DNA of 41,846 bases from Beijerinckiaceae bacterium. Lineage in GTDB: Bacteria; Pseudomonadota; Alphaproteobacteria; Rhizobiales; Beijerinckiaceae. The stretch covers positions 1 through 41,846 of the forward strand of contig CANGOK010000002.1 in NCBI GenBank assembly GCA_947455285.1, read 5' to 3'. Made by a program: the position numbers and the translations under genes. A model generated the notes under the pieces. The model did no database searches. It saw nothing but the letters and a program-made list of their open reading frames with translations, and was not told the origin of the DNA. The first letter of the stretch is position 1. The number at the start of each line of letters is the position of its first letter. Positions 2,227 through 23,058 of the stretch are shown here, in pieces.

Positions 2227-2331
2227 GTCTATTTCCTTTCGATACGCAGGACCCCGGACCCCGAAGCGATCCGATCTGCGGGCGGGGGCGATCCCAAGGG
2301 ATCGTGGCTCGCCCGGTCCCCGATGCTGCTG

Positions 2332-2360
2332 AGATTGGTATTCACCGCCCCGACTGCAAG
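2332..2360 (-). promoter_or_regulatory. Candidate sigma-32 promoter for dnaK
   Basis: On the minus strand CTTG is followed after 18 bp by CCAATCT. This resembles the alphaproteobacterial RpoH pattern (CTTG, 17-18 bp, CYTATnT). It sits 106 bp or more upstream of the dnaK ATG, which leaves a long 5' leader. The match is imperfect and was found by eye. Confidence 0.4.
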
Positions 2361-2478
2361 GGCGCCTGCGCAGTTGATCTCCATCTGCGGGCTATATGGG
2401 CGCCGCGATTTTCTGTCGCAACCGGCAGGGGATAGGAGAGGGGCGGAAACTGCGGCTTTGCATCCCGCCCCGGTCTTG

Positions 2479-2988
2479 TCAGGCCCGGTTGATCGTCAGT
2501 CCCAGTTTCGGGGGCTTGGCGAGGGTCTGGAAGATCACGCAATAGCGCTCGGTGAGCTTGATGAGCGTATCGATCTGCTCTTGCGAAGCCTCGGTGTCGA
2601 GGTCGAAGGCGAGCCGTATCTCGCGGAAGCCAACCGGCGCATCCTTGGCGACGCCCAGCGTGCCGCGGAAATCGAGGTCGCCCTCGGCGCGCACCACGCC
2701 CGCCTTCAGAGGAATGGCGAGGGCGGTGGCGACCGCCTTCAGGGTCACGCCCGCGCAGGCGACAAGCGCCTCAAGCAGCATGTCGCCTGAGCACAGCTCC
2801 GCGCCAGAGCCGCCGGTGGCCGGATGCAGGCCCGCGACGGCGAGAGCCCGACCCGTTTCGACCTTGCAGGCGATCTTGGACTCGTCGATCGAGCCATGCG
2901 CTTTCAGGGTGATGACGGCGGCGTCGGGGTCGGACTTGTACTTGTCCTTATAGGGGGCCTGCATGGCGCGCAGCGCGTCGGAATCCAT
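2479..2988 (-). CDS. OsmC/Ohr-family peroxide-reducing protein
   Basis: 169 aa. The OsmC fold is suggested by the central Cys in LVACAGVTLKAVATAL and the second Cys in LTERYCVIFQTL, which match the paired redox cysteines of the family. These are cytoplasmic thiol peroxidases acting on organic hydroperoxides. The start at 2988 is supported by a GGAG site 6-7 nt upstream. The gene lies between a TctC-type binding protein (26-bp gap upstream) and dnaK. Sequence alone does not separate OsmC from the YhfA-like subgroup. Family assignment is firm and exact substrate unknown. Confidence 0.82.
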   Translation of the reverse strand: MDSDALRAMQAPYKDKYKSDPDAAVITLKAHGSIDESKIACKVETGRALAVAGLHPATGGSGAELCSGDMLLEALVACAGVTLKAVATALAIPLKAGVVRAEGDLDFRGTLGVAKDAPVGFREIRLAFDLDTEASQEQIDTLIKLTERYCVIFQTLAKPPKLGLTINRA

Positions 2989-3014
2989 GGAATGCTCCTG
3001 TATGTTCGGCCCGA

Positions 3015-4040
3015 TCAGGGCGTGATCAGTTGCTTGGCTCGCTGCACCACTTCTTTGGGCGCAGCATAGAGTTTTGAAACGACTTCCTGAACCTTTTCGC
3101 CGCGCAGGGGCGAAATGTCGAGCCGGCCCTGTTTGGCGTCCGCAAGGAAGGCGTCGTCCTTCATCACGGCCTCAAAGGCGTCGCGCAGCATCTTCACCAC
3201 TTCGGGCGGGGTTCCGGGAGGCGCCACATAGGGCCGCCCGAAGACTTGTTGGCTGACGATCAGCTCCACGGGGGCCTTGTCGGTTTCCTTGGAGATGTAT
3301 TTCCAGATGCTCGGCACGCCCAGAGCGTCGAGTTCGTGCTCGCTCTCGATTCCGTCCTGCACCAGCACATTGACCGTCTTCTGCTCCAGCCATGCGGGAC
3401 GCTGCGATTTCAGGCTCGTCCAGTCGAGACCGCAGAGGCCATCGACCTCGCCGCGCTCGATGGCGAGCAGGATGTCGGCGGTGCCCTTGTAGCCGCTGAC
3501 GATGTCGAACTGCGCGCCCGCCGCATTCTTGTGGAAGGCGGCGTAATCGCGTGTCGAGCCGCCCGCCGCGCTCGCGCCGATCACGGTCTTCTGCTTTTGC
3601 GCATCCTCGAAGGTCTTCACCTTGGACGAGGGGCCGGTGATGCAGACGCGGGTGCCGCTGTCGGCTGTGGCGAGATATTCGAATTTATTGGGATCGAAGA
3701 GGTTCTGCGCCCGGTCTTCGAGCAGCGGCCCGACGATCACACCCGGGAAGAGCGCGCCGATGACCGTGCCATCCTTGGCGGACAGGCGAAACAGGGCCGC
3801 AGCCGCCGTGCCGCTGCCTGCGCCGGGCATGTTGCGGGGAAGAACGACGGGATTGCCAGGGAGGAATCGACCGAGATGCTTGCCGATGTTGCGCGCATAG
3901 ATGTCATATCCGCCGCCGGCGTCCGAGCCGATGACGAAATCGACCTTCTTGCCGGTATAGTAGTCGGCGGCGGTGGCGGCGCTGGTGCTGAGGGTCGCGC
4001 AAAGCAGCATCGCCGAGGCCTTCAAGCCTTTCGGTGACAT
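3015..4040 (-). CDS. TctC/Bug-family periplasmic solute-binding protein (copy 1)
   Basis: The ORF track opens at 4103, but the ATG at 4040 (MSPKGLKASAMLLCATL) has GGAGG 5 nt upstream and starts a clean signal peptide ending near ATAAD, so 341 aa is preferred. The mature protein shows the tripartite-tricarboxylate-transporter receptor pattern: GSDAGGGYDIYARNIGKHLG, NMPGAGSGTAAAALF, and a C-terminal helix region after VAPPGTPPEV. Family members bind carboxylates in the periplasm for TctAB or signalling partners. No tctA or tctB is nearby, so it is an orphan receptor. It sits inside a housekeeping block and belongs to the same subgroup as the protein at 37343-38362 (shared GGGYD and NMPGAGS segments). 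The ligand cannot be read from sequence. Confidence 0.85.
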   Translation of the reverse strand: MSPKGLKASAMLLCATLSTSAATAADYYTGKKVDFVIGSDAGGGYDIYARNIGKHLGRFLPGNPVVLPRNMPGAGSGTAAAALFRLSAKDGTVIGALFPGVIVGPLLEDRAQNLFDPNKFEYLATADSGTRVCITGPSSKVKTFEDAQKQKTVIGASAAGGSTRDYAAFHKNAAGAQFDIVSGYKGTADILLAIERGEVDGLCGLDWTSLKSQRPAWLEQKTVNVLVQDGIESEHELDALGVPSIWKYISKETDKAPVELIVSQQVFGRPYVAPPGTPPEVVKMLRDAFEAVMKDDAFLADAKQGRLDISPLRGEKVQEVVSKLYAAPKEVVQRAKQLITP

Positions 4041-4089
4041 AGGTCCTCCATGGAATGATTGAACGCCGCCTATAGAAGAGCCCCGCGCC

Positions 4090-4887
4090 TCACGCAAGCG
4101 CATCTCGTTGCGTGAATGGAGCCCCGTTCAGACGGCGCAGGAATCCTGCGAGATCATCGGTGGTGAAATCCACATGGGCCGGGATCACGCCCGGTTGCTC
4201 CCAGGATTCGCGATGGTCCACCTGCCCCTTCTTTGGCACGACAAGCGTCGTCACCATGCCGCGCGCATGGGGCGTCAGGAGATTGATGACGATGTCTTCG
4301 AACATGGCGGCGCGCGACGGCTCGACCTCATGCTTGTCGAAGAAACGATCATAGGTCTCCTGCGCGGGCTTTGGCATGAGATCGGCGGCGACGATATCGA
4401 AGACGTCCTCGAAAAGATGGTCGAGCCCGAGCTTCTTGGCGGTGCGCAGCGCATGTTCACGCGAGCCATTGGTGAGGATGAGCTTGCGTCCGCGCAGCGC
4501 CGCGATGGCGCCCGCCAGCGAATGATCGGGCGAAAGGCTGGAACGGTCGATGTCGTGGACGAATTCGAGAAACTGGCTGGCGCTGACGTCATGTTCCAGC
4601 ATCAATCCGTTCAGGGTCGTGCCGTAGCGCTGGTAATAATATTTTTGGAGGGCGCGCGAGGACATGGCGTCGAGGCCAAAGAGCTCGGCAAGAAACAGCG
4701 TGATGCGCGCGTCGATCTTCGGCCAGAGGTCGCTGTCGGAAGGGTAGAGCGTATTGTCGAGATCGAAAACCCAGGTGTCCACATGGGCGAAGCGGGCGAC
4801 GAGCTGCGCATCGCTCACCGCTTCAACCGGCGCTGCTGCGCCAAGGACGGGCGTCAGCGGGACGTCTTCCGTATGGTCGATTTTCAA
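4090..4887 (-). CDS. HAD-superfamily pyrimidine 5'-nucleotidase
   Basis: HAD motifs appear in order: motif I WVFDLDNTLYPS (two catalytic Asp), motif II ILTNGS, Lys in LMPKPAQETYDRF, and motif IV FEDIVINL. The DLDNTLYP form is typical of the SDT1/pyrimidine 5'-nucleotidase branch, which dephosphorylates UMP or CMP in the cytoplasm. No ATG precedes motif I. The track start at 4944 is TTG. A second in-frame TTG at 4887 has AGGAG 5 nt upstream and is preferred (265 aa); a GTG at 4818 is also possible. It lies 74 bp downstream of argB on the same strand, an arrangement common in this order. Function is well supported, start uncertain. Confidence 0.8.
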   Translation of the reverse strand: MKIDHTEDVPLTPVLGAAAPVEAVSDAQLVARFAHVDTWVFDLDNTLYPSDSDLWPKIDARITLFLAELFGLDAMSSRALQKYYYQRYGTTLNGLMLEHDVSASQFLEFVHDIDRSSLSPDHSLAGAIAALRGRKLILTNGSREHALRTAKKLGLDHLFEDVFDIVAADLMPKPAQETYDRFFDKHEVEPSRAAMFEDIVINLLTPHARGMVTTLVVPKKGQVDHRESWEQPGVIPAHVDFTTDDLAGFLRRLNGAPFTQRDALA

Positions 4888-4961
4888 TTGCGCTCCTGCG
4901 GATCGGGGGAAAGATAAGCTATATTCCCCCGGTCCGGTTTCCAACTATCTGGGCGGCGCCC

Positions 4962-5855
4962 CTATCGGGTGATGAGCGTTCCCGCCCCGCCATCGGTGAG
5001 AAGCTCGACCAGAACCGCATGGGGCGTTTTCCCGTCGAGGATGACGACGCCTTCCACGCCCTGTTCAATGGCGTAGATGCAGGTCTCGACCTTGGGGATC
5101 ATGCCCCCGGTGATCGTGCCGTCAGCGATGAGATCGCGGATCTGGCTGACGCTAAGTTCCTTGATGAGCTGCTTGTTCTTGTCGAGCACGCCGGGCACGT
5201 CGGTCAGGAACAGCAGCCGCTTGGCCTTGAGCGCGCCCGCGATGGCGCCGGCGAAAGTGTCGGCGTTGACGTTATAGGTCTCGCCATCGGCGCCTTGGCA
5301 AACGGGGGCCAGAACCGGAATCAGCTCGCGGCCGAGCACCTGCGAAAGAACCGTCGTATCCACCTTCGAGGGATCGCCGACGAATCCAAGGTCGAGATCG
5401 ACCTCCTGATTGAGGGCGGGATCATGCACTCGCGTCACCTTGGTCGCGGTGACCATGTTGCCGTCCTTGCCGCACAGGCCGATGGCGCGCCCGCCGGCGG
5501 CGTTGATGAAGCCGACGATCTGCTTGTTGATGGAGCCGGCCAGCACCATCTCGACGATCTCGACGGTGGCCTTGTCGGTGATTCGCAGGCCCGCCGCGAA
5601 TTCCGACTTGATGCCGAGCTTCTTGAGCATGGCGCCAATCTGCGGCCCGCCGCCATGAACCACGACCGGGTTCACGCCCGACTGCTCGAGCAGGATCATG
5701 TCTTTTGCGAAACTGCGGGCGACTTCTTCGTCGCCCATGGCGTGCCCGCCGTATTTCACCACCACGATGGTTTCGTCATAGCGCAGCATATGGGGCAGGG
5801 CCTGCATGAGGATTTCGGCCTGATGCTGGGGGCTGCTCTTGGAGGCGTCGGTCAT
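4962..5855 (-). CDS. argB: Acetylglutamate kinase
   Basis: 297 aa, normal for ArgB. It shows the amino-acid-kinase features VVKYGGHAM (ATP phosphate-binding Lys and Gly), [18 protein letters not shown] (acetylglutamate loop), [13 protein letters not shown] and [10 protein letters not shown]. It phosphorylates N-acetyl-L-glutamate, the second step of arginine synthesis, in the cytoplasm. The ATG at 5855 leaves a 78-bp gap to engB upstream. The position after yidC-engB is characteristic of Hyphomicrobiales. Feedback inhibition by arginine is usual for this long ArgB type but is inferred here. Confidence 0.97.
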
Positions 5856-11026: not shown

Positions 11027-11103
11027 GCGCCCGTAGCTCAGCTGGATAGAGCACCAGACTACGAATCTGGGGGTCAGAGGTTCGAATCCTTTCGGGCGCG
11101 CCA
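11027..11103 (+). tRNA. tRNA-Arg (anticodon ACG)
   Basis: A full cloverleaf can be folded: acceptor GCGCCCG / CGGGCGC, D-arm with AGCTCAGCTGGATAGAGC, anticodon stem CCAGA/TCTGG around the loop CTACGAA (anticodon ACG), T-loop GGTTCGAATCC, discriminator G and encoded CCA at 11101-11103. It is 77 nt long. The gene borders a gene-poor segment with a small XRE regulator, and tRNA 3' ends are common integration targets. Confidence 0.97.
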
Positions 11104-11299
11104 TTGATTTCAAGAACTTAGCTGTCGGCGGCCATCGCCCAGTTTCCCAGAAAATCTAATTGGGAAGCATATGGGAAGCGCGTCGTGTACCGTGGGCTTG
11201 CAGCTGTGGTGCGGCCTTTATCTGAATCTGGCCCGCCATCCTCTTATGCGGCAGCGGCATCCAAGTCGGATCGCTATGCTGTCCTTGAGAGTCGCATAG

Positions 11300-11320
11300 C
11301 CGGAAACCGGTCACGCGCGC
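11300..11320 (+). repeat. Direct repeat, copy 1 (CCGGAAACCGGTCACGCGCGC)
   Basis: A 21-bp unit nearly identical to the one at 11380-11400, exactly 80 bp away. They share CCGGAAACCGGTC followed by a CG-alternating tract. It lies in the non-coding stretch between tRNA-Arg and the XRE gene. It could be an operator for the XRE regulator or debris of an integration event. Confidence 0.7.
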
Positions 11321-11379
11321 GCACCGTGTCTCATTGAGCCATCAGGCTTCTGCTTATCACGGAGCGCGCCGCCTCCTTA

Positions 11380-11400
11380 CCGGAAACCGGTCGCGCGCGT
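11380..11400 (+). repeat. Direct repeat, copy 2 (CCGGAAACCGGTCGCGCGCGT)
   Basis: Second copy of the unit at 11300-11320, 55 bp beyond the XRE gene's stop codon. The stretch 11104-11455 otherwise holds no supported gene. Confidence 0.7.
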
Positions 11401-11455
11401 GCGCGCGTACATGTCCGATAATTACCGCTTTTCGCCAACCCTGCCCGACCGGAAG

Positions 11456-11704
11456 TTATTTCGCCAATCTCGCCCCGGGCGTCGGCTCGGCGAAAAGAAT
11501 GACGCCGTGCTGCAGCAACGCCTGCTCTATGCGGGCGTCATTTGGGGCGCTGGTAGGCCGCCGGCCGTGCTTACACTCCCAGAAGCGGACGGCGCGCTCG
11601 TCAACGCCTAGAGCGGTACCAAAGGTGCGCTGAGTCAGGCCAGCCAAAACGCGGGCCGCACGCAGCTGGCGGCCGGTGACAAGGTTCTTGCAGTGTCTGG
11701 CCAT
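11456..11704 (-). CDS. Small XRE-family HTH transcriptional regulator
   Basis: The track start at 11863 is too far upstream. The ATG at 11704 (MARHCKNLVTGRQLRAARVL) has GGAGG with a 5-nt spacer and gives 82 aa. The helix-turn-helix reads LAGLTQRTFGTALGVDERAVRFWE, the alphaproteobacterial XRE pattern (LRAAR-L-x-Q-x-x-x-A-x-x-x-G-V-x-x-x-x-V-x-x-W-E). The tail GVILFAEPTPGARL is a variant of the C-terminus common in this group. Such genes are frequent in islands and prophages. It stands alone between a tRNA and the cellulose operon. Target unknown. Confidence 0.8.
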   Translation of the reverse strand: MARHCKNLVTGRQLRAARVLAGLTQRTFGTALGVDERAVRFWECKHGRRPTSAPNDARIEQALLQHGVILFAEPTPGARLAK

Positions 11705-12385
11705 AGGATCCTCCGTTGTTTGATGCGCGTCAAATGCGGCCGCCAAAGTGGCGGTCCGACAGCGAATAGAGCGCTTTGCGGATCGCTGTGTTGTCTTATC
11801 GACAATCTGCGCGAAGCAAGCCCCTACTGATCTGGGCGACGAATTCGCTCTCCCGCTCCCCAAGCGTCAGGCGGCGCAACCCGACGATTATACGGGCGCA
11901 GTCGAGGTGCATGCGAATAGCGTTTCGCGAAATCGTAGCGGGAGGAAGAAACATCTATATTTGATAATATCTCAAAAAGAGAAAATTTAAAGAAACAGGC
12001 TGCGCTTAAAACACACCCCCGCGGCCCAGAAAGATATGCGACACGATTGTGCGCAACGAAGCGGGGCAACGGGAACGAAAGTTGCCCCCCATAAAACGGC
12101 CCGCGCAATACCTCCGAGACCCGCCACCCCTATGCCATCCGCAATGAGCCGTCAGGCGCCTGAAACAAAAGTGTAGCATAGCGTTGAACGCAGCGCATGC
12201 CAAGAACAAGGCTTCCAAGAACAGCTGATAGAGGCAAGCGGTTGCTGGCCAAAGACCGCTTTGCCTTTGTGCGTACAATCTGCCTTCCGCCTACCCGACA
12301 AAAATTTCAATCTCGGCGATTAATTCAGGCATTAGACCAAAGCAGAGATATCTCCCCGAGGTCGATACATCGGCGAACAGACGGA
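11705..12385. other. Non-coding junction, no supported gene
   Basis: About 680 bp between the XRE gene and the end of the cellulose operon. Base composition drops near 11940-12000 (ATATTTGATAATATC and A-runs). The predicted ORFs lack ribosome sites and family resemblance. It probably contains the XRE promoter at its left end. No terminator with a clear T-run was seen for the cellulose operon. Confidence 0.5.
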
Positions 12386-13864
12386 TTAATGCACGCCTGA
12401 CAAATGCGAACGAGGACTACCATCAGAAATGGCGGCAGAAACCGCCTCAACTAAACTTTCTTGTGCATTCGCCTTTGCAAGAAGCGAGATACCCCCCGCC
12501 CTCGCAATATCACACCTATCCTTTTCACCAAGCGCACATCCAACCAGTATAATTGGCAAACCCCGCTGAACGCCTCGCAAGGACCGCACCAACTCAGGCA
12601 GGTCGATGTGCGGTGCAGAACATGCATCCATATCAATCACGCCCACATCAAACGGCGTCCCAGCGGCTGCGAGCCTCGAGGCCTGAGGATCCTGAACGCG
12701 GCAGATGATATGCCCTGCTCTCGCCAGAGCCAGCGTTAGACCGGGGCTACCAATTTCGTTGCCTTCAATGAGAAGCACGTGGGCGCCCGCGCCAACTTGG
12801 GCGTCCGCGTTCCAGCCATGAGACTGTGGAGCCTGATTATTGATTTGCACCGTTTTGAACGGGTTCGTCCAGTGATCCCCTGCGCTGACGGCGCTTTCAC
12901 CTACGCTCGCCAAGGGCGCTCTTTGTCCTCGCTTCTGATCTACTTCCCGCAAAGTATTAGGCCCATCATCAAAAGGATTCGTTTGAGGAAGAGCGATCTC
13001 ATCAACACTTCTCACTGAGATTTGCGGGTTTACTCTATCGACATCAGCCAAAGCACCCAAATCAGCCTCAACTTGAGGAGCTATGGCAGAGGGCGTCGGG
13101 CCTCGACGGATTAACGATGCAATTTGGCGCCATGACGTTTCTGAAGTTATTGCAAACACCGCTTCACAAAGGTCGGCATGATCCGGACTTAATGCGATGA
13201 CTGGGCGATGACCCTTATCGGCGGAAGCAGCCAACTTTTTCGCCTCACTCATTCCATGACGTTCGAGCAAAATGATAAGATCGGCATCTTGCGGGCTGAC
13301 CATATCGAAGCATAGTTTCAGGGCTTTTTCCTGATCCATTGTTGGTTTGGGACAGGCAAACACTCTGGGCCGCGTTTGCAGGCCCAAGCGTCTCCAATGC
13401 GCTTTTGATAGATCGCGCGCAGCATGCGGCGCTTCCGTACGATTGAGCCCATCGCCCTGTGGTGGCAACCCAGCAGCCATCGCCATAGGCCTAATGTCGG
13501 CGGCGGCTATTGCATCGAGCAGTGCCCCCGAGCGAAGGGGTTTCGACAGAATAGCTTTGAAAACCCCTCCGCACACCGCACTCACCGCAAGCGCATAGCG
13601 ATGCTCCACCAAGCCTATCAGCGATGGCGAGGGGGCCTGCCCGCGCACGCCATCCGCATTCAGCAAACTCCCAAGAAAGCTACTCCCCATAACGGCAAGG
13701 CTAAGATCCATTATCACGGTGTCGAAAGGGGACCTCCGCGACCGCTCAACCGCTTGGGCGCCGTTTGCTGCCAAATCAACCTGATGTCCCTGGGCGCAGA
13801 GAAGCCGCCATATGGCGTCTCTTTGAACAGAATCGCTTTCGACCACTAGAATACGCTGGTGCAT
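12386..13864 (-). CDS. Multi-receiver (REC-like) protein at end of cellulose operon
   Basis: 492 aa, no membrane segment or output domain. The N-terminal receiver (about 1-120) has RILVVESDS (acidic pair E9/D11), IMDLSLAVMG (phosphoacceptor D53) and the ILSKPL Lys-Pro pair. A middle block (about 165-252: RVFACPKPTMD, DADLIILLERHG, HRPVIALSPDHAD) looks like a degenerate receiver. The C-terminal block (about 359-480) repeats the fold: HVLLIEGNE, FDVGVIDMDA, LPIILVGCAL, SLLAKAN. The linker carries two TNPF motifs. The gene follows the TPR gene by 41 bp. It may relay a kinase or c-di-GMP-linked signal to the cellulose machinery, which is inference. No named family was recognised beyond REC. Confidence 0.75.
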   Translation of the reverse strand: MHQRILVVESDSVQRDAIWRLLCAQGHQVDLAANGAQAVERSRRSPFDTVIMDLSLAVMGSSFLGSLLNADGVRGQAPSPSLIGLVEHRYALAVSAVCGGVFKAILSKPLRSGALLDAIAAADIRPMAMAAGLPPQGDGLNRTEAPHAARDLSKAHWRRLGLQTRPRVFACPKPTMDQEKALKLCFDMVSPQDADLIILLERHGMSEAKKLAASADKGHRPVIALSPDHADLCEAVFAITSETSWRQIASLIRRGPTPSAIAPQVEADLGALADVDRVNPQISVRSVDEIALPQTNPFDDGPNTLREVDQKRGQRAPLASVGESAVSAGDHWTNPFKTVQINNQAPQSHGWNADAQVGAGAHVLLIEGNEIGSPGLTLALARAGHIICRVQDPQASRLAAAGTPFDVGVIDMDACSAPHIDLPELVRSLRGVQRGLPIILVGCALGEKDRCDIARAGGISLLAKANAQESLVEAVSAAISDGSPRSHLSGVH

Positions 13865-13905
13865 CGTATCACTCGCTTTTGGGTAAAGCCGTTACGCTCA
13901 AGGTC

Positions 13906-15732
13906 TCAGCGCTTTAAGCGCAGAGCGACCGCCTGGGCGCCGATGGCGTCGGCGCTGTATGTCAGCATCCCGCTGGCACCTGCAGCGGATGATGAATGTC
14001 GAGAAGCTTGTGAAGCGATCGTCCCCTGCGCCGGCGCGCTATCGACGGAAGGCGCGGCGCTTGGAACGCTTTCGCCGTTCCAGCCTGGAGAAAGTTTCAG
14101 GTCAGGCCGCTCATAGGGCATGGCCACCACGCCCGACACACGTCGTGCGTTGAGGGGTCTATGCTCGGGCCCTTGAGGGCGCGCTACAATCGACTTCAGT
14201 TTTAAGTCTGTGGATTCAGGAAAGCGCAGGGGGTTCTCCGCCGCTACAGAAATCGGGAAGTCCTTTGCCTGTAACGACTGACTTGAAACAGCCATCTTAT
14301 TATAAAAATGGCTTGGCTGTGGCACTAACATCATTGATGCCTTTCCCTTCAGGCTGACGATCTCCAAGCGCGGCTGCTCACGCTTATCAGGTCCATTGCA
14401 AGCGCCGCCAAGGGCTTCGCTCCCATCCTTGAAAACCAAACCAACCACAGTCGGGAACAATCCATCGTAGCGGTTGACTAGTTCCGAGAATTCCTTTTGC
14501 TTCTTTAATCGTTGCAAACTGACCGCTTGACCAAGGATCGTCGTTTCCCTCGGCAGCCATGCGCTTGCGCGTCGGAACCAGTCGAGAGCCGTTGCAAATT
14601 GGCAGGACTTATAGGCGTACCAGCCGAGCGCCTGTGCGCCTTCACCAGAGCGCGCTTCCAAGGTGACCTTGACGTAGCGCAGCAACCTGTTGGGCTCGAT
14701 GGGTTGCATGGTCGCTTTGGTAAGTTGCGAATCGAACATATCGATGAAGAGGATCATGTTCGCCGTGACAGTGTCGCGCGAGTTGAAGGCAACATCTTCG
14801 GCCTCGCGCAGCTTGCCAAGCCGCCAAAGCGTCTGCGCCAGACCGTGTGCGCTGATGGGATCGGCCCCCCGCGCACGCGCTGCCTGAAACCATTTCAGCG
14901 CAGAGTCCAGCCTGTTTTCGTGCAAGGCGAGCCAAGCCAGAAGCTCCACCGCGCCTCCCTCTTTCGAGGTCTCGGCATAGGTTTCGAACTCTGTAAGTTG
15001 CGCGGCGTCTATGGGGTCGTTCCGTTCGCCCTGCAGTATGGCCGCGATACGACCGCGCGTGAGATCGTTCGCGAGTTCCGAGAATTCGGCAGCTTCGGTG
15101 GCCGTTTTTCGGCCGATATCAAGCAATTGTTCCACATCCGCCATGGGTAAGGCGCCAAGCGCTTTCAAAATAGTGACGCGGCGCTCCTTTAGATCCGTGC
15201 TGCGTTGTAGGAGGCGCGAGAATATCGACCGCGCCTCAACCTTTCGATCGCAGCGCGCATAAGCCTCCGCGATGGACCAGGAAAGCGCTGCATCATCGGC
15301 GAAGCCGCCTGTCAGACGCTCGCTTGCGAGATCGCAGACTGCGAACCATTGCGCCTTCGCGGCCTTGCTCAAGATCTGATCGCGCACCTCCTTTCGCTTG
15401 ATCTTCCGTAGCAGATCATCGGATGGCCGCCAGCCCGGCTCCACAGTCTGGCGTTGGGCGATCGCGCGCTTAAGCCCGCCCAGATCGTCCGCTGCATACA
15501 ATTCCCAGAGCGGCTCCTCGTCGCCCATGGGCAGGCGCGCCGACCAGATATCTTCGGGCATGGACCAGCCGGGAAAAAGACCCGACAAGCGCCGCGCTTC
15601 GGCCTCGACACGCAGCGTCTGGCCCTGGGCCGCATAATATCGCAAGGCGGTCTCATCGATCTCTTGGGCCTGTGCGCAGGACACGGAGCCGCAGCCCAGA
15701 ACAAAGGCCAGCAGACTCGCCCGTAAAGACAT
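13906..15732 (-). CDS. Periplasmic TPR protein of the cellulose operon (BcsC-TPR-like role?)
   Basis: 608 aa from the ATG at 15732, which overlaps the bcsZ stop by one base (TGATG); the track uses a GTG at 15747. A signal peptide is clear (MSLRASLLAFVLGCGSVSCAQAQ). The body is helical with TPR-like pairs, for example LLAWLALHENRLDSALKWFQAARARGADPISAHGLAQTLWRLGKLREAED and ALGWYAYKSCQFATALDWFRRASAWLP (cited in parts). The last 150 residues are Pro/Ser/Ala rich and disordered. There is no beta-barrel, so it is not a full BcsC. In other systems the BcsC TPR region spans the periplasm and contacts the BcsAB-BcsZ machinery. The same scaffold role is inferred here. Confidence 0.75.
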   Translation of the reverse strand: MSLRASLLAFVLGCGSVSCAQAQEIDETALRYYAAQGQTLRVEAEARRLSGLFPGWSMPEDIWSARLPMGDEEPLWELYAADDLGGLKRAIAQRQTVEPGWRPSDDLLRKIKRKEVRDQILSKAAKAQWFAVCDLASERLTGGFADDAALSWSIAEAYARCDRKVEARSIFSRLLQRSTDLKERRVTILKALGALPMADVEQLLDIGRKTATEAAEFSELANDLTRGRIAAILQGERNDPIDAAQLTEFETYAETSKEGGAVELLAWLALHENRLDSALKWFQAARARGADPISAHGLAQTLWRLGKLREAEDVAFNSRDTVTANMILFIDMFDSQLTKATMQPIEPNRLLRYVKVTLEARSGEGAQALGWYAYKSCQFATALDWFRRASAWLPRETTILGQAVSLQRLKKQKEFSELVNRYDGLFPTVVGLVFKDGSEALGGACNGPDKREQPRLEIVSLKGKASMMLVPQPSHFYNKMAVSSQSLQAKDFPISVAAENPLRFPESTDLKLKSIVARPQGPEHRPLNARRVSGVVAMPYERPDLKLSPGWNGESVPSAAPSVDSAPAQGTIASQASRHSSSAAGASGMLTYSADAIGAQAVALRLKR

Positions 15733-16847
15733 CAATCTTTCAGGCACGACGGATACCTCATCCTGGCGGCGGTCAAGGATAGTAAGTGCAATGTCACTGG
15801 ATAATAATGATCAAGCGATTGCACCGAGCGGAGTTGGCTCGGAAACAAAGCGCCTTTCATGGCGCATGCGCTCAATGCCGGTATGCTTTCGTAACTGGCT
15901 TCCTCGATCCATTCAGAGACCTGGCCCTTAGCCAGATCGACGAGCGGGAAACCGCGCGGCCCACGCTTGCCCCAGATCTGCAGAAAACCGGAATGGTGTC
16001 GCGGCTGGTCGAAACCCGCCCAGGCCAGATAGAGGGGAATGCGGATGGCATTATAGGAGAACTGCGCCGCGAATCCCGCCGCTGGCTGCGGCTGGCCGGA
16101 TGTGAGCGTCACCCAATCGCTTGGTAATTTGGCGGGGCCAAATTGCGAATTGTAAATCAGACGCAGGCCCGTCGTGACAAGACTGTTCCAATCGAACTCC
16201 GGCGCGACAAGCGGCAGGCGCGCAAAGGCGGGAAAGATATAATATGAAAGGTTCAGGACAGGCCCGTCCGCGCGATCTTCTGTTGCGAACCCGCTTGCGC
16301 CCGGCAGCAGCAAAGATCCCATCGGCGTATTGAACAGCACCAGTTTGCGACCGATGTCGAGTGCCATGCGCCGCGCAGCGACACGGTAGCTTGGATCAGG
16401 CCAGGCGACCGCCGCTTCAACCAAAGCCCAGGCGATCAGAATATCACCATCGGACGCATTATTGACGTCGGCTACGGCGGGCCTTTTGTCTGGCTCCCAA
16501 CGCCACGCGGCCAGTTCATCATTGCGGATGAACAGGTTCGCTCTTGTCCAGCCCCAGATACGTTCAAAGCTGGCCCGGTCGTCAGCGGCGACGGCGAGCA
16601 GCATGCCGTAACCCTGCCCTTCGCTATGGCTGACAAGGCCGTTGGCAGTATCCACCACCCTGCCCTGCGCTGTCACGAAACGCGCCTTGTAGGCGCGCCA
16701 AGCATCCTTCTGCTGCAACATGCCATGCAACGCTACATCTCCGCTCACGGCTTCGGCGACAGCGCTGCCGGTCAAGATCAATATGGCGAAAGCCAAGGCG
16801 ACAAGACCGCGCATTGCTTGCGCTTTGTAATAGCGATATCCGGTCAT
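15732..16847 (-). CDS. bcsZ: Endoglucanase, glycoside hydrolase family 8 (BcsZ)
   Basis: 371 aa with an N-terminal hydrophobic export segment (GLVALAFAILILTGSAVAEA). The GH8 core has VSHSEGQGYGML with the general acid E76, NNASDGDILIAWAL with D133, and aromatic substrate-groove residues such as ERIWGW and WRWEPD. BcsZ cuts beta-1,4-glucan in the periplasm and is needed for proper cellulose export. The ATG at 16847 overlaps the bcsB stop (ATGA), implying coupling. Length fits the family (about 340-370 aa). Confidence 0.93.
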   Translation of the reverse strand: MTGYRYYKAQAMRGLVALAFAILILTGSAVAEAVSGDVALHGMLQQKDAWRAYKARFVTAQGRVVDTANGLVSHSEGQGYGMLLAVAADDRASFERIWGWTRANLFIRNDELAAWRWEPDKRPAVADVNNASDGDILIAWALVEAAVAWPDPSYRVAARRMALDIGRKLVLFNTPMGSLLLPGASGFATEDRADGPVLNLSYYIFPAFARLPLVAPEFDWNSLVTTGLRLIYNSQFGPAKLPSDWVTLTSGQPQPAAGFAAQFSYNAIRIPLYLAWAGFDQPRHHSGFLQIWGKRGPRGFPLVDLAKGQVSEWIEEASYESIPALSACAMKGALFPSQLRSVQSLDHYYPVTLHLLSLTAARMRYPSCLKD

Positions 16848-19210
16848 TCAACCCTCCGGCCGGCGTTCAGGACCAGCCACAGCGTGGACGCAGCCAGACA
16901 TAGAACCAGACCAATGCAAGCAGCCACATAAGCGGCGGGGTTCAGAGAGAGCCACGCCGCGCCGATCAGGCGCAGATTGCCAAGGCTCCACGAGGTGGGC
17001 GCGTAGAAACGCCGCCCCTCGTCATCACGAACCGATAGGACCGTTTCGTTCACTTGCAACGCGCTCAGGCGGCCGCTGACGGTGGCCCAGATGCGCGGAT
17101 GGGTGAGACAATCGACGCCAGCCTTTAACGAGGCGGCGTCAGGCGCGGTGACGAGGGTCCAGAGATTGCGAGAATCTGCCGCGGGAAAGCCCTGGCTCAT
17201 GGTGAGCACGGATGCTTGCGACAGCGCGCCCGCTTCCGACGCGCGTACCTCTTGCGCGTTCGATTGGCGAAAAAACAAGGTCGGCATATTGAACTGCTTC
17301 TCGAAGCTGGCGGGGGAGAGGGACGGGGCGGACGGCGCGCCTCTGGCTTCAACCTTGGCGGCGGCTGGCTCGGCGCCCGGCAGATCGCAATGGCGCTTCG
17401 AGCCCAGCGCAACGGGCCGCGCGCCGTTGCTGACTGGCTTTTTTGGCTCGTTGCGCCAGACGAGGTGCACACGCTCGGGATCAAGCCCGGCTGCTTGCAT
17501 CAATTGGGGATCGAGCGTCGGCGCCGGAGAAACCATCAGCACATCTCCCGCATCAAGGGCGGGCGCCGTCATCGTGAAGGTGAAATCGACCGGGCGGCGG
17601 TCTGCGACGGCGATGCGCGCAGCAAGGGTCGCCGCCGCCGACATGGTGGCGCGATCAGGATTGGGGACAAACAGGATCGGCCGCGCGCCCTCTTGCGCGA
17701 AGGGAAAGCCCCCCGCCGCTGTCATTGCCAGATCAGGCGCGCGCGCCACCCTGGCGACTTTCGGCAAAGTGAGCTCGCTACGGTCAAGAAGATGCAGTCG
17801 GTTTGATTCGACGCTTCCGCCATGCGGACAGGCGGTATCTCCCGCCGTAGGCAGTTCAGCCGTAATATCGATTCGGTTTACGCCCGGCCGCATCAAGGCC
17901 AGCGGCAGGAACATGCGGTTCAAAGAAAGATCGCGGGCGCCGCTGCGGGCGAGGGGCTGCATGGCTGCGTCGGCGCCATTGATGGAGACCAGAATGCGCG
18001 CGTCCCGATCAAGCGCGTCGCTGTAGGAGCCCCCGAGTTGCAGCGTTATGCGGTCATAATCGGCGCTCATGAAATCCATGGGCATCGCCACATTCAGACC
18101 CACGCGCAAATGCCTGCCAGAGAAAACCGCGCCGCCAAACCCGGCTTCGCTGATCGCCATAGTTTCCCGCTCGCCGCTGGCCTCGCGCCCCGCTTGCCGC
18201 ATGGCCGCGCGTAAGCCGGGCTCCGCGCCGCGCAGTTTTGGTGTCTGCGCCTCTAGCGCCAGTCGGTCGAGCGCCCGATCGAGATCGGCGGCTCCAAGGC
18301 CAGTGATGACAAATGTAGGGGCGCGGCTGGGCCGCTCTGGCAGAAATCCATAACGAGGACCAGTTACGGAGCCAAAGTCGGCGAAATCGGGAAGTGCGCG
18401 CAGTTCCTCAAGCGTACCCACGGCGAGATCGAGCCCCGAGCCATCAGTCCCTGCCGAGCCAAACTCCACCAGCGGCTGCAATGACCCGCTGTTCACTGCA
18501 ACGATCTGGCTCGCTCTGATGGCGCGGCCCGCCATGTCAGGCGTCAGCTTGCCGGACATAAGGATGCGGATCACGGAGGCGCCATCGCCTCGCGGTGCGA
18601 TCGCGGCCATATCCGCCACACGCTCCATCCCCGTTGCACGCCGTTCGCCTGCGAAGACAAACCCCGTCTGTTCCGGCCGGATCTCAGTCAGCAGTTCGTA
18701 CGTCGCAGCCAGCGTGCAATCGACCCGGTGGCGCTGCTGCGCCTTCAGGCGGATGGCGTTGAAACCGGGCTTCAACACGCCCTTCGGTAGATCAAAGCCA
18801 AGTTTTGAAAAGCCGCTCGTCGCTCCGAGCCGCTGACGGCCGACGACTGTGTCATTGACGCTGAGCGTCAGGCCTGACGCCTCCGGGAGGACGGAGATGG
18901 AGGATTGAGCGATAACCTGAAAGCTCGCGGCGTCCCTCGCTTGTGCGTCGGTCAAATAGACCGGCCATTCCCTTTCGTCCCACTCGCCGTCGAAGCGGAA
19001 ATCCTTCAAGCCTACTGGCAATCGGCGGATATCCTTGCGTTCGGCGCGGACCGAGACTGCGTCTGTCGCTTTGCCAAGACCCGCGAAAACCGGGATCCGC
19101 GCTCCAGCCGGCGCGACTGGGGTCCAAGCCGGCGTGTCGGTCTGCGCCAAAGCGGGTGCTGCGCAAAGAGCCAGCACGAGGCCTGTGAAACGCTTGGAGA
19201 ACATTCGCAT
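16844..19210 (-). CDS. bcsB: Cellulose synthase regulatory subunit BcsB
   Basis: The track start (19561) lies inside bcsA. The ATG at 19210 is 4 nt after the bcsA stop and begins a signal peptide (MRMFSKRFTGLVLALCAAPALAQ), giving 788 aa. The periplasmic part shows repeated carbohydrate-binding/flavodoxin-like modules: FQVIAQSSISVLPEASGLTL, GFNAIRLKAQQRHRVDC and FVITGLGAADLDRALDRL (cited in part). A C-terminal membrane helix (YVAACIGLVLCLAASTLWLVL) anchors it to BcsA. BcsB guides the nascent glucan across the periplasm and is required for BcsA activity. Gene order bcsA-bcsB-bcsZ supports the call. Confidence 0.93.
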   Translation of the reverse strand: MRMFSKRFTGLVLALCAAPALAQTDTPAWTPVAPAGARIPVFAGLGKATDAVSVRAERKDIRRLPVGLKDFRFDGEWDEREWPVYLTDAQARDAASFQVIAQSSISVLPEASGLTLSVNDTVVGRQRLGATSGFSKLGFDLPKGVLKPGFNAIRLKAQQRHRVDCTLAATYELLTEIRPEQTGFVFAGERRATGMERVADMAAIAPRGDGASVIRILMSGKLTPDMAGRAIRASQIVAVNSGSLQPLVEFGSAGTDGSGLDLAVGTLEELRALPDFADFGSVTGPRYGFLPERPSRAPTFVITGLGAADLDRALDRLALEAQTPKLRGAEPGLRAAMRQAGREASGERETMAISEAGFGGAVFSGRHLRVGLNVAMPMDFMSADYDRITLQLGGSYSDALDRDARILVSINGADAAMQPLARSGARDLSLNRMFLPLALMRPGVNRIDITAELPTAGDTACPHGGSVESNRLHLLDRSELTLPKVARVARAPDLAMTAAGGFPFAQEGARPILFVPNPDRATMSAAATLAARIAVADRRPVDFTFTMTAPALDAGDVLMVSPAPTLDPQLMQAAGLDPERVHLVWRNEPKKPVSNGARPVALGSKRHCDLPGAEPAAAKVEARGAPSAPSLSPASFEKQFNMPTLFFRQSNAQEVRASEAGALSQASVLTMSQGFPAADSRNLWTLVTAPDAASLKAGVDCLTHPRIWATVSGRLSALQVNETVLSVRDDEGRRFYAPTSWSLGNLRLIGAAWLSLNPAAYVAACIGLVLCLAASTLWLVLNAGRRVE

Positions 19211-19214
19211 GCGC

Positions 19215-21572
19215 TTACTCGGCCCCCTGCATGAAGGGCCCAGCATCTGAATTGGCGTTAGCAAAGCCTCCTCGAATGGGAACGCCTGATAGCTCGGCGA
19301 TGGCGGCCAGCCAGGAGGCCTCGTTGATCTCGCCCGCCGATGGAATTGTTTGAGCGCTTGCGGGAGTACCGCTCGCGCCCATGCCCTCAGAGGTCGCCGG
19401 GCTTTCGGCGGACCGTAGATCAGGCCTCTTGCGGAACGCCAGAACGAGCGCGCGGAAAGGCTCGGTGATGCCCCAAATCGCGAACTGGAGCGAGCCGCGC
19501 AACAGGCCGATGGGTTTGTGACGGCGCGAAAGAAACCGACTGATCGCCTCTGTATCCCCATACATCAGCTCGGCGACCGTCTGGTAGTTTTGGGGCCGCA
19601 GATCATCGAACACGAGCTCCAAGCCAGCGCCCGAGGCTTTCGTGCAGCGCACGGCGACTTGCCCATGGGGCGCGCCCCCATGGGCGGGAATAACCGTAAG
19701 CCAACCGGTGGCGGCTTCATCCACATTCGATGGAAGGTTCTGGGGGCCGAGCGAAGCGACGCCACAGTCGGACGCGGACACATAGTTGATCCGGACTCGA
19801 ACCTCCTCGTCTCCCAGAGTAAGGAGTCCAGTGCGGCTGATCGCAAGGCGCGGGTTCCGCTCTGCCTGGCGCCTTTCCGCGACCACGCCAAGAGCGACCC
19901 CAGCCACGATCAGGTTAAAGCAGCTCCAGATGCCGACCACCTGCATCGTTCCGGCGACGCCGGGTTCGTTGACATAGCGCCACGCCGCCGTCCCAGTAGC
20001 CACAATAAGGAATAGAAAAATAGCAACGAAAGGCCAGGCAAGGTCAGAGAGATGATCATGCTCCAGCGACACACCCTTAGAGGTGACGTTGAAAGTGGGC
20101 TTGCGCGGCGACAGGGCGACGGAACCGAGGGCCTTGATCAGGAAGACCCCCTGCACATACTCGTAAAGCTCCGACATCAAGGGCCAGCGGACATGCCCAT
20201 ATACATAGCTCTGCATCAGCATGTTCACGCTCATGTAGGACAGCGTGTAGGCCAAGGTCTCATCGAGGCTCGATACGAATATCTTGATGTCGAAAAAGAT
20301 ATGAAGCAGCGGCGCGATCATGAAAACGCAACGCGGAATCGGGAAGAACCAGAAGGCCATGCTAGACAAATAAGCGATGCGCTGGATCGGCTTTAGCCCC
20401 GCAAGCCGCATGGGATTCTTCAGTAGAAAAATCTGGAACATCCCCTGACACCACCGCGAGCGCTGCCCGATGAAACTCGAGAACGTCTCGGGTTGCAGGC
20501 CCGCGATGAGCGGCTTGTCCACATAAATACTCGTCCAGCCTTGCGAATGCAGCGCAAGCGCGGTCTCGCAATCCTCGGTGATGGTGATTCCCGAAAAACC
20601 GCCGGCGCTCGCCAGCGCCGCGCGCCGCAGCAACGCGGCCGAGCCACAGAAAAACGAGCCGTTCCATTTATCGAGGCCGCATTGCGTGACGCCGTAAAAC
20701 ATTTCGTTTTCCGACGGCATGCGCTCGAATGTGCGCAGGTTCCTCTCGATGGGATCGGGATTAAGGAACACATGGGGCGTCTGCACAAGAAAAAGCTTCG
20801 GATCCTGACTAAAATAGCCGACGGTCTCCCGCAGGAACCTGCGGAAGGGTGCGTGGTCAGCATCGAACACGACGACCACTTCGCCCGTGGAATGAACCAG
20901 TCCGTTGTTCAGATTGCCGGCCTTGGCATGTTCATTTCGAGCGCGTGTCAGATAGGTGGCGCCAAGCTCGCGACACAGGCCCTGCAGGGATAGGCGCCGA
21001 CGGTAGGCCGCAGCGGCCTTGACCGGGTCCTTGTCGGCGCATTTCTGGTCCGTGCCGCCATCGTCCAGGAGCCATACCTTTAGTTTCTCGGAGGGATAAT
21101 CCATGCCTTTGGCGGCGCAGATCGTCATCGCCAGAATGCTCTCGTCCTCATTGTAGCTGGGAATCAAGACGTCGACGGTCGGCAGTTTGGCGTCGTCTTC
21201 GCGCGGCAGCGATTTGCGGCGTAGGGGATCGACATTGATCAAAAGACTGATCGCCATGATGAACGCGCAAAACATCTCGGCGGCGAGCACGATGCAGCCG
21301 AAGCTGAAGCCCGCCACATCCGAAACCGGCGGGAGCGTGCTGGACAGACGCCAATATAGATAACGAAGCAGCACAGTACTCCCGAGCGCGAGAAAGAGCT
21401 GCTGCACCCAACTCCATCGCGGCAGGAACGAGAAGACGATAAGGCCGCAGACGGCGGTGGCGCTCAGGGCCGTCTGGGCCTGAACGCTGACCGGGTGGGT
21501 CAGGAGAAGAAGCATCATCGACCCGAAGAGGCCCCAGCAGACCCACCTCAGGCGGTGCAAGAGGCCGCTCAA
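19215..21572 (-). CDS. bcsA: Cellulose synthase catalytic subunit BcsA
   Basis: 785 aa GT2 synthase in the inner membrane making beta-1,4-glucan from UDP-glucose. Motifs: DD in LLDDGG (170-171), DxD in FDADH (237-239), TED (332-334), QRSRW (370-374) and gating loop FNVTSKG (494-500). About eight membrane helices surround the GT domain. The C-terminal PilZ region is atypical. Where c-di-GMP-binding BcsA has RxxxR, this reads ERRQAERNPR, so the first Arg aligns with E571. Where DxSxxG is expected it reads SASDCG (S599 in place of Asp). The start is a TTG at 21572 in a TTGA overlap with the bcsS stop; a later start at the SMMLLLL methionine is possible. Confidence 0.95.
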   Translation of the reverse strand: MSGLLHRLRWVCWGLFGSMMLLLLTHPVSVQAQTALSATAVCGLIVFSFLPRWSWVQQLFLALGSTVLLRYLYWRLSSTLPPVSDVAGFSFGCIVLAAEMFCAFIMAISLLINVDPLRRKSLPREDDAKLPTVDVLIPSYNEDESILAMTICAAKGMDYPSEKLKVWLLDDGGTDQKCADKDPVKAAAAYRRRLSLQGLCRELGATYLTRARNEHAKAGNLNNGLVHSTGEVVVVFDADHAPFRRFLRETVGYFSQDPKLFLVQTPHVFLNPDPIERNLRTFERMPSENEMFYGVTQCGLDKWNGSFFCGSAALLRRAALASAGGFSGITITEDCETALALHSQGWTSIYVDKPLIAGLQPETFSSFIGQRSRWCQGMFQIFLLKNPMRLAGLKPIQRIAYLSSMAFWFFPIPRCVFMIAPLLHIFFDIKIFVSSLDETLAYTLSYMSVNMLMQSYVYGHVRWPLMSELYEYVQGVFLIKALGSVALSPRKPTFNVTSKGVSLEHDHLSDLAWPFVAIFLFLIVATGTAAWRYVNEPGVAGTMQVVGIWSCFNLIVAGVALGVVAERRQAERNPRLAISRTGLLTLGDEEVRVRINYVSASDCGVASLGPQNLPSNVDEAATGWLTVIPAHGGAPHGQVAVRCTKASGAGLELVFDDLRPQNYQTVAELMYGDTEAISRFLSRRHKPIGLLRGSLQFAIWGITEPFRALVLAFRKRPDLRSAESPATSEGMGASGTPASAQTIPSAGEINEASWLAAIAELSGVPIRGGFANANSDAGPFMQGAE

Positions 21573-22315
21573 AACAGCACCCGTAAATCCGCGGAGCCAT
21601 AAATACCGGACTTCTGGTCTTTGTCCTGCTGGTAACCGAAGGACAGCCCGCCCTGAACCGGCCCGAACTGCACACCTGTCAGGAAAGCGCCAACCTGCCA
21701 GAGCGCATAAGTATTGTTGCCCATGAATGCCGACTCAGGCCCCAGGTAGAAGCCTTCAGGGAGCATGTAACCAACCCTCAGACGCGTGAAGAACTGGCTG
21801 TCATTCGTCGCGAAAGCGCCAAAAGCGGAGACCATGGTCCGCTCCGAGGGACGCGCGTAATAGTCGACGGCCCCCTTAAGGCCCAGGCTCGCGCCATTCG
21901 CTGAATTTTTGGGATCGGGCCGTGAAAGCGCGGTATTGAGCGCCATGCCGCCAAGGTAAACCGCGAACTTAGAACGGGGACCAACCCACTCATAACCACC
22001 CAGGGCTGCGGCTTCGACCTGCCGGCCTCGGATCTGCAAGTTGGTTGCGGAGAGATACTCATACGTCCCCGCAAGTGCTTCCACTCGCAGCCTTGCGCCG
22101 CTGGTGGACAGGGAGCCGGGGATGGCGGCGGTCGCGCCTGCTTCCAAAAAATAGGACTTCGATGACGAGCCGGTCGTCGATGCGTCAACGCTGACGATCC
22201 AGTCATCGATGATTTTGGGCGACGGCGTCGCGGGATACCAATCGGCCGAACGGGCTGGACTGATCATCAATGCGAACAGCACGCTTTTGGATACAGAAAA
22301 ACCCACTCGCAACAT
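21569..22315 (-). CDS. bcsS: Cellulose biosynthesis protein BcsS (beta-barrel-like)
   Basis: 248 aa with a signal peptide (VLFALMISPARSA, cleavage near DW). The mature part is made of alternating amphipathic strands with aromatic girdles (AALGGYEWVGPRSKFAVYLGG, FFTRLRVGYMLPEGFYLG). It ends in ADLRVLF, a C-terminal Phe as in BAM-recognised outer-membrane proteins. BcsS is a small family found with alphaproteobacterial bcs operons; its biochemical role is not established to my knowledge. Here it is the first gene, coupled to bcsA through a TTGA overlap. It may form the outer-membrane pore in place of the missing BcsC barrel (inference). AGAGG lies upstream of the ATG. Confidence 0.75.
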   Translation of the reverse strand: MLRVGFSVSKSVLFALMISPARSADWYPATPSPKIIDDWIVSVDASTTGSSSKSYFLEAGATAAIPGSLSTSGARLRVEALAGTYEYLSATNLQIRGRQVEAAALGGYEWVGPRSKFAVYLGGMALNTALSRPDPKNSANGASLGLKGAVDYYARPSERTMVSAFGAFATNDSQFFTRLRVGYMLPEGFYLGPESAFMGNNTYALWQVGAFLTGVQFGPVQGGLSFGYQQDKDQKSGIYGSADLRVLF

Positions 22316-22671
22316 CCACAGACCTCTTTACGAGCGCGCTATCGCCAACCGGCGAAAAACCAATGCGGTTGGGATAATATTGATGCTCGCAGGTAAAGTT
22401 CTGATTAAATATGGTGAAAAATTTTTATTTGAAATAAGATTACTATGCGTCAAATTTTCGATTAATATTCAGTAATCATGATTTTAGTACTTTAATGCAC
22501 CGCTATAGGTATTTCTTATGCTTGGCAATTTAACTGGCAAAAGATTCGCGGACAGAACAAATCTTACGTGTTCGACAACCTCGCATTAAAAAACAGCTGC
22601 TTCGATTGATCTGTCACCATCGGCTTATCAAAGTTGAAAAGGGGAGTTAGGGCGAAGGATGAAAATAACAT
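22316..22671. promoter_or_regulatory. AT-rich region upstream of the cellulose operon
   Basis: 356 bp with no gene. It is markedly AT-rich from 22370 to 22520 (ATTAAATATGG, TTTATTTGAAATAAGATTA), unlike the GC-rich flanks. The bcsS promoter must lie at its left end, but no single promoter stands out. The composition suggests transferred or decayed DNA next to the prophage-like relics. Confidence 0.45.
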
Positions 22672-23058
22672 TCAGGTCTCTTGCCACAACTTCCCTTTAG
22701 CCACGCGGTAATGGGTGGTTGCGGTGCGCGCGGCGATGATCCGGATCACATGGGGGATGGTCTTCAATTTCCGAAGGATCACCTCCCTGCGCTTTGCGGA
22801 TGGGGAACCAGCGCACTTCCATATCGCCTCGTTTAGCGGCGTCTCATCCCGCCTTGTCGCCGTCAGTTGCCGGTGGATGGCCAGCACCAATGGCAAGGCC
22901 ACCACTGCGTCAGCCTCGACAATTCCCTGGATAACGCTCTGAGGAAACGAAGGGATGTAAGCCTGCTTTGCCCCGGCGCTTACCTTTTCAAGCGGCATCA
23001 ACTCCTTGTCCGTCAGCGTGTTGAGCGAGGGGGAAGACTGGGGCGGATCAGGACGCAT
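22672..23058 (-). CDS. Hypothetical protein, phage/island context
   Basis: 128 aa from the ATG at 23058, which has a strong purine-rich site (GGGAGGGGGGG) upstream; the track start at 23148 is longer and less likely. I do not recognise the family. It is mostly helical, with a middle segment VIQGIVEADAVVALPLVLAIHRQ and a basic C-terminal half (KRREVILRKLKTIPHVIRIIAARTATTHYRVAKGKLW) that could bind nucleic acid. It lies downstream of the polA relic on the same strand, so a phage or plasmid origin is likely. Function unknown. Confidence 0.55.
   Translation of the reverse strand: MRPDPPQSSPSLNTLTDKELMPLEKVSAGAKQAYIPSFPQSVIQGIVEADAVVALPLVLAIHRQLTATRRDETPLNEAIWKCAGSPSAKRREVILRKLKTIPHVIRIIAARTATTHYRVAKGKLWQET

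Follow-up and report, generated by a model that had tools for sequence, protein, structure and literature searches.

The bcsA gene of the window (the whole stretch of 41,846 nucleotides analysed here) most plausibly encodes a functional cellulose synthase catalytic subunit that is no longer controlled by c-di-GMP, that is, a derepressed synthase whose control would lie in expression and substrate; we give this reading a probability of roughly three in four. Judging from the sequences compared, c-di-GMP control was very probably lost in the window lineage. The preliminary description had suggested weak or lost c-di-GMP control from two altered PilZ motifs, and this is now strongly supported, both by the residues and, independently, by a genome that, like those of its sister species, has almost no c-di-GMP enzymes or receptors. 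The features are listed in Table 1.

Table 1. Features of the bcs operon, of BcsA and of the single GGDEF-EAL protein; positions are those of the window unless another locus is given
Feature	Position	Strand	Basis or remark
bcsS (PF17036 CBP_BcsS)	21569..22315	-	136 bits
bcsA, cellulose synthase catalytic subunit, PilZ domain without c-di-GMP ligand residues	19215..21572	-	TIGR03030, 4hg6 phmmer, AF2 model
E362, equivalent to R. sphaeroides E371, which pairs with R580 in the autoinhibitory salt bridge; kept	20487..20489	-	
Gating loop FNVTSK (FxVTxK), residues 494-499, intact	20076..20093	-	motif reading and alignment
RxxxR position: A570 E571 R572 N573 P574 R575	19848..19865	-	alignment to R. 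sphaeroides BcsA
DxSxxG position: Y597 V598 S599 A600 S601 D602	19767..19784	-	gap-free family alignment
PilZ linker and six-stranded barrel, residues ~565-660, fold retained	19593..19880	-	AF2 strands
bcsB, periplasmic subunit with C-terminal membrane anchor	16844..19234	-	PF03170
bcsZ, GH8 endoglucanase	15732..16847	-	PF01270
TPR protein behind bcsZ, conserved, 613 aa	13906..15747	-	possible BcsC-like scaffold without barrel
Multi-receiver protein, 492 aa	12386..13864	-	REC1 and a second degenerate REC near 362-475
Lone GGDEF-EAL protein of the window genome	L122 (G000:C178) 2242-5229	-	

By its sequence, the gene is a bona fide BcsA (TIGR03030), and beta-1,4-glucan synthesis is predicted for it. 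Its reading frame, for 785 residues, lies on the minus strand and opens with a TTG start that overlaps the bcsS stop. The product scores 808 bits against the TIGR03030 (CelA) profile, whose curated cut-off is 699, and 588 bits against Rhodobacter sphaeroides BcsA (4hg6) with phmmer. The GT motifs are unbroken (DDGGTD at 170-175, DADH at 237-240, TEDC at 332-335 and QRSRW at 370-374), and the preliminary description was right to call these motifs and the gating loop intact. Membership of the BcsA/CelA family is thus indicated by the profile score, by the catalytic D, DxD, TED and QxxRW residues with FxVTxK, and by the presence of bcsB and bcsZ in the operon. Purifying selection acts on the GT domain, and the PilZ region is much less constrained (dN/dS in the window's group of about 0.11 versus 0.3-0.5). 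Part of the PilZ divergence is ordinary, since PilZ outpaces GT even in BcsAs that have R580: the PilZ:GT distance ratio is 2.9 in such outgroup BcsAs versus 3.9 in Beijerinckiaceae.

The damage to the ligand motifs is seen most directly in the alignment with R. sphaeroides BcsA, where phmmer pairs AERRQAERNPR of the window gap-free with AEKQQRRAAPR of 4hg6. This puts A570 and E571 at the positions of R579 and R580, which are both replaced, and R575 at that of R584, which is kept, bearing out the earlier reading of ERRQAERNPR with Glu at the first Arg of RxxxR. That the second motif is altered also holds, while the substitution first proposed, Ser for Asp in SASDCG, was read in a register off by two, the same register in which phmmer itself set SASDCG against DASTSG. 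The gap-free alignment (NYVSASDCG / DHVSASACG / ENVSAGGCA, with CNVSAGGCG as a further family sequence) places Tyr597 at D609, Ser599 at S611 (kept) and Asp602 at G614, so the second motif is more damaged than had been described, with both D609 and G614 lost. Two sister species carry a like pattern, with AERNPR or TERNPR, H at 609 and D or A at 614, and the loss is therefore no product of chance or sequencing error. No intact pair of RxxxR and (D/N)x(S/A)xxG was found elsewhere in the C-terminal region of BcsA. The string RQAER (568-572) is off register, three residues upstream, and the sole DxSxxG-like string, DEAATG (618), comes 21 residues after the point where the motif belongs.

The fold around these motifs persists. 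An AlphaFold2 model of BcsA built from 42 sequences (mean pLDDT 83) matches c-di-GMP-bound R. sphaeroides BcsA (4p00) over the whole chain, with a TM of 0.92 by target length, and predicts barrel strands at 576-586, 589-598, 602-607, 622-627, 639-647 and 650-655. PF07238 (PilZ) has no match in the window BcsA at 1e-3; it does match the BcsAs of three other genomes (G057, G024 and G010). Of the marks of a c-di-GMP-binding PilZ domain, the six-stranded barrel is present, and RxxxR, (D/N)x(S/A)xxG and the Pfam match are missing. In the model, the PilZ barrel is still there as a structural element, without its ligand residues. Since its two defining motifs fail in the alignments, we file the protein as a BcsA and not as a c-di-GMP-binding PilZ protein.

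R580 of R. sphaeroides BcsA has a double role, as the gating-loop lock, through a salt bridge with E371, and as a c-di-GMP ligand. In 79 Beijerinckiaceae BcsAs, the residue at 580 (R. sphaeroides numbering) is Glu in 44, Asp in 31, Ala in 2, Arg in 1 and Thr in 1, making it acidic in 75/79, and residue 371 is Glu in 56, Asp in 21, Ala in 1 and Gly in 1. A charge swap compensating the lock (K/R at 371) occurs in 0/79. R580 is mostly kept in the other families of the order. A BcsA tree computed without the PilZ columns is consistent with the acidic residue having arisen once, close to the root of Beijerinckiaceae, and having reverted to Arg in one case (L006). The likely Arg return, L006 / L060 (G057), is the lone family member with R580 and DVSAGG and is nested among D580 sequences. 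In the same tree, the window's three species group as sister to Bosea-like BcsAs that have D580, an intact R584 and NVSAGG. As read from the alignments, the second motif has gone in at least two separate events, one in Methylobacterium (S584, R609) and one in the window's three-species group. Among the family BcsAs without RxxxR, 29/79 retain (D/N)xSxxG, many of them in hosts with many GGDEF proteins, and acidic 580 alone may therefore not abolish binding.

In outgroup BcsAs with Gln or Ala at 580, residue 371 is also changed, to Thr or Ala, in 4/5, as expected if the two residues form the lock. In L026, L028, L199 and L206, sequences from other families of the order with Gln or Ala at 580 and Thr or Ala at 371, R584 and (D/N)xSxxG stay, and the R580-E371 lock seems to have been lost as a pair while the c-di-GMP site persists.

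The host of the window BcsA appears to have little with which to make or sense the messenger. Genomes were searched with profiles of the PilZ, GGDEF, EAL and HD-GYP families; the window genome (G000) is a MAG of 84% completeness. Six species of the genus have exactly one GGDEF match: G000, G033, G005 (99% complete), G032 (100%), G016 and G036. The profile search returned no PilZ match in any of the six and no HD-GYP domain in the clade's genomes searched; the same search gives 2-22 GGDEF matches in other genus members. In G000, G033 and G005, a single protein of ~990 aa accounts for the only GGDEF match and the only EAL match of each genome. In the six species, this lone GGDEF-EAL protein has ASDQF or SSDQF for GGDEF and ESQ for EAL, and its EAL metal ligands are lost, with RIP or RIS where the metal-binding NxS should be and GD, GG, AD, AE or GE replacing the DD of DDFGTG; many of its relatives in the genus keep EAL, NVS and DDFGT. 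Both active sites look dead, and the protein is probably non-catalytic. Strong purifying selection still acts on it (dN/dS 0.04-0.13) despite its degenerate sites, which argues that it has some other role.

The six species form one clade in the YidC tree (support 98), with G028 (3 GGDEF, no PilZ) as sister. By this gene content, the clade, with genomes of 3-4.4 Mb, has apparently lost c-di-GMP signalling completely. An artefact of MAG assembly is rejected as the cause of the missing genes, as the pattern recurs in six genomes, two of them at least 99% complete, and the same search succeeds elsewhere in the genus. Loss of motility is likewise rejected as the cause, because the whole clade carries flagellin genes. 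Bosea and its allies, the closest BcsA relatives, have 13-21 GGDEF proteins, and Methylobacterium has 20 (G058) and 28 (G184), so that BcsA can also become decoupled in cells with many c-di-GMP genes.

Another protein of the operon could have taken over. The preliminary description raised this for the multi-receiver protein, which might act directly on BcsA, somewhat like BcsE in the activation by proxy of Escherichia coli. In each of the group's three species with bcs genes, the gene comes after the TPR gene, and its product has receiver-like regions, with further receiver-like folds predicted at lower confidence. A dead-receiver protein can still act on BcsA: in E. coli, c-di-GMP-free BcsA appears competent when complexed with BcsE, which carries a REC that cannot be phosphorylated (PMC11470070). 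However, a homologue lies beside bcs in a minority only, and most relatives with D/E580 lack it there. REC1, canonical in Bosea and Methylobacterium, has lost one acid-pocket Asp (ED to ES/EG) and the switch Thr (LTADR to LVEHR) in the window group; it keeps D53 and K108 of a phosphorylatable receiver (PF00072), and these residue losses make the protein a poor candidate for a phosphorylation switch. It is also the fastest-diverging protein of the operon, at 79% and 60% identity versus 92% and 85% for BcsA. The replacement proposed earlier is accordingly disfavoured, and we regard it as unlikely. A further reading, in which the retained barrel is re-used as a docking or sensing surface (for example, for the degenerate multi-receiver protein or another nucleotide) and gives a new type of control in a bacterium without c-di-GMP, seems to us about as improbable.

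It is more doubtful still that BcsA binds c-di-GMP through re-positioned arginines (R572, R568 and R575) and stays regulated. Many family members have an arginine like R572 (D/E-R at 580-581), RQAER does supply an RxxxR string, and the beta-glucan synthase BgsA binds c-di-GMP without PilZ motifs (PMC5567048). Against this, the DxSxxG partner is gone as well (Y597, D602), and neither plausible c-di-GMP synthesis nor other PilZ receptors were detected in the clade. Weak or different contacts with c-di-GMP might still be made, given that R572, R575 and the off-register RQAER remain near the motif.

The surroundings of the operon bear on its origin. The order bcsS-bcsA-bcsB-bcsZ-TPR is common in Beijerinckiaceae. 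The TPR protein, with no evident barrel, and BcsS flank the synthase and together could stand in for BcsC as separate chains, one the scaffold and the other the outer-membrane barrel. The bcs cluster is absent from G032, G016 and G036 and occupies different places in the genomes of G000 and G005, and the position of the window group in the BcsA tree conflicts with the YidC tree. Synteny with G032 and G005 ends near 11720, just before the bcs cassette, and this break, together with the absence from G032 and the other location in G005, suggests that the cluster is mobile or island-borne. The cassette starts ~1.3 kb past a tRNA-Arg (11027-11103), and its region spans 11027-22851 of the window; a search for att-like repeats around it gave nothing clear. 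A DNA polymerase A-type fragment (PF00476; 23197-24408, minus strand) adjoins the operon and is possibly what remains of a phage or plasmid gene. Least probable of all is a reading in which the operon, acquired by horizontal transfer, is now decaying and yields no cellulose: its patchy presence, shifted location and tree conflict would fit, but three species have every Bcs frame open, GT dN/dS is as low as given above and no catalytic motif is broken.

We return to a working but derepressed synthase as the preferred reading. E571 would face the retained E362, and the lock would not form; with the equivalents of R579, R580, D609 and G614 gone, c-di-GMP would not be bound. The synthase would be active whenever it is made, and how much cellulose it makes would depend on operon expression, the supply of UDP-glucose and BcsZ. 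The R580A mutant of R. sphaeroides BcsA is constitutively active, according to Morgan et al. as cited in PMC5567048. As for the history, the change of R580 would have come first, near the base of Beijerinckiaceae. The ancestor of the window lineage would have lost c-di-GMP signalling, the clade would have acquired the operon from a Bosea-like source, and what was left of the binding site would have decayed in a host without c-di-GMP, with the order of the last two steps as we infer it. The Bosea-like source is suggested by the conflict of the BcsA and YidC trees, the different sites in G000 and G005 and the absence from G032.

With R. sphaeroides BcsA (4hg6, 4p00), the window BcsA shares the whole-chain fold, the GT motifs, the gating loop, E371, R584 and S611; it differs in the replacement of R579, R580, D609 and G614 and in a host clade without a detectable c-di-GMP network. 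It resembles the R580A mutant, as that is cited in PMC5567048, in the missing lock arginine and the predicted derepression, whereas its own change is natural and charge-reversing (Glu) and the ligand site is lost as well. The BcsAs of Methylobacterium and Methylorubrum (such as L066, L069 and L077) likewise have E580, a lost second motif and the bcsS-A-B-Z-TPR order, but theirs is an independent loss, with S584 and R609, in genomes that keep many GGDEF proteins. Sinorhizobium meliloti BgsA is also a GT2 beta-glucan synthase without PilZ motifs, yet it lacks a PilZ fold and uses a different domain to bind c-di-GMP (PMC5567048). Loss of the c-di-GMP network has been described, for instance, in Morganellaceae, where Proteus keeps cellulose synthase in a lineage nearly without c-di-GMP; Proteus, however, retains a diguanylate cyclase and intact PilZ motifs (PMC10333796), both of which are gone in the window clade. 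Among the titles and abstracts returned by searches of open-access literature, we found no description of BcsAs with an acidic residue at 580, nor of a cellulose synthase kept after c-di-GMP loss with its PilZ site erased.

c-di-GMP was discovered through BcsA, and regulation by PilZ is commonly regarded as intrinsic to the enzyme. The annotation 'c-di-GMP-activated' BcsA should not pass unchecked to Beijerinckiaceae. The BcsAs compared here form a natural series: R580 intact; R580 reversed with the rest intact; the site lost amid many c-di-GMP genes, as in Methylobacterium; and the site lost in a clade seemingly without c-di-GMP. With this series one can test directly whether R580 gives up its part in the lock or its part as ligand first, whether the enzyme requires the lock at all, and by what means cellulose is regulated when the messenger is missing. 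The window BcsA would then be a natural test of an enzyme running without its switch.
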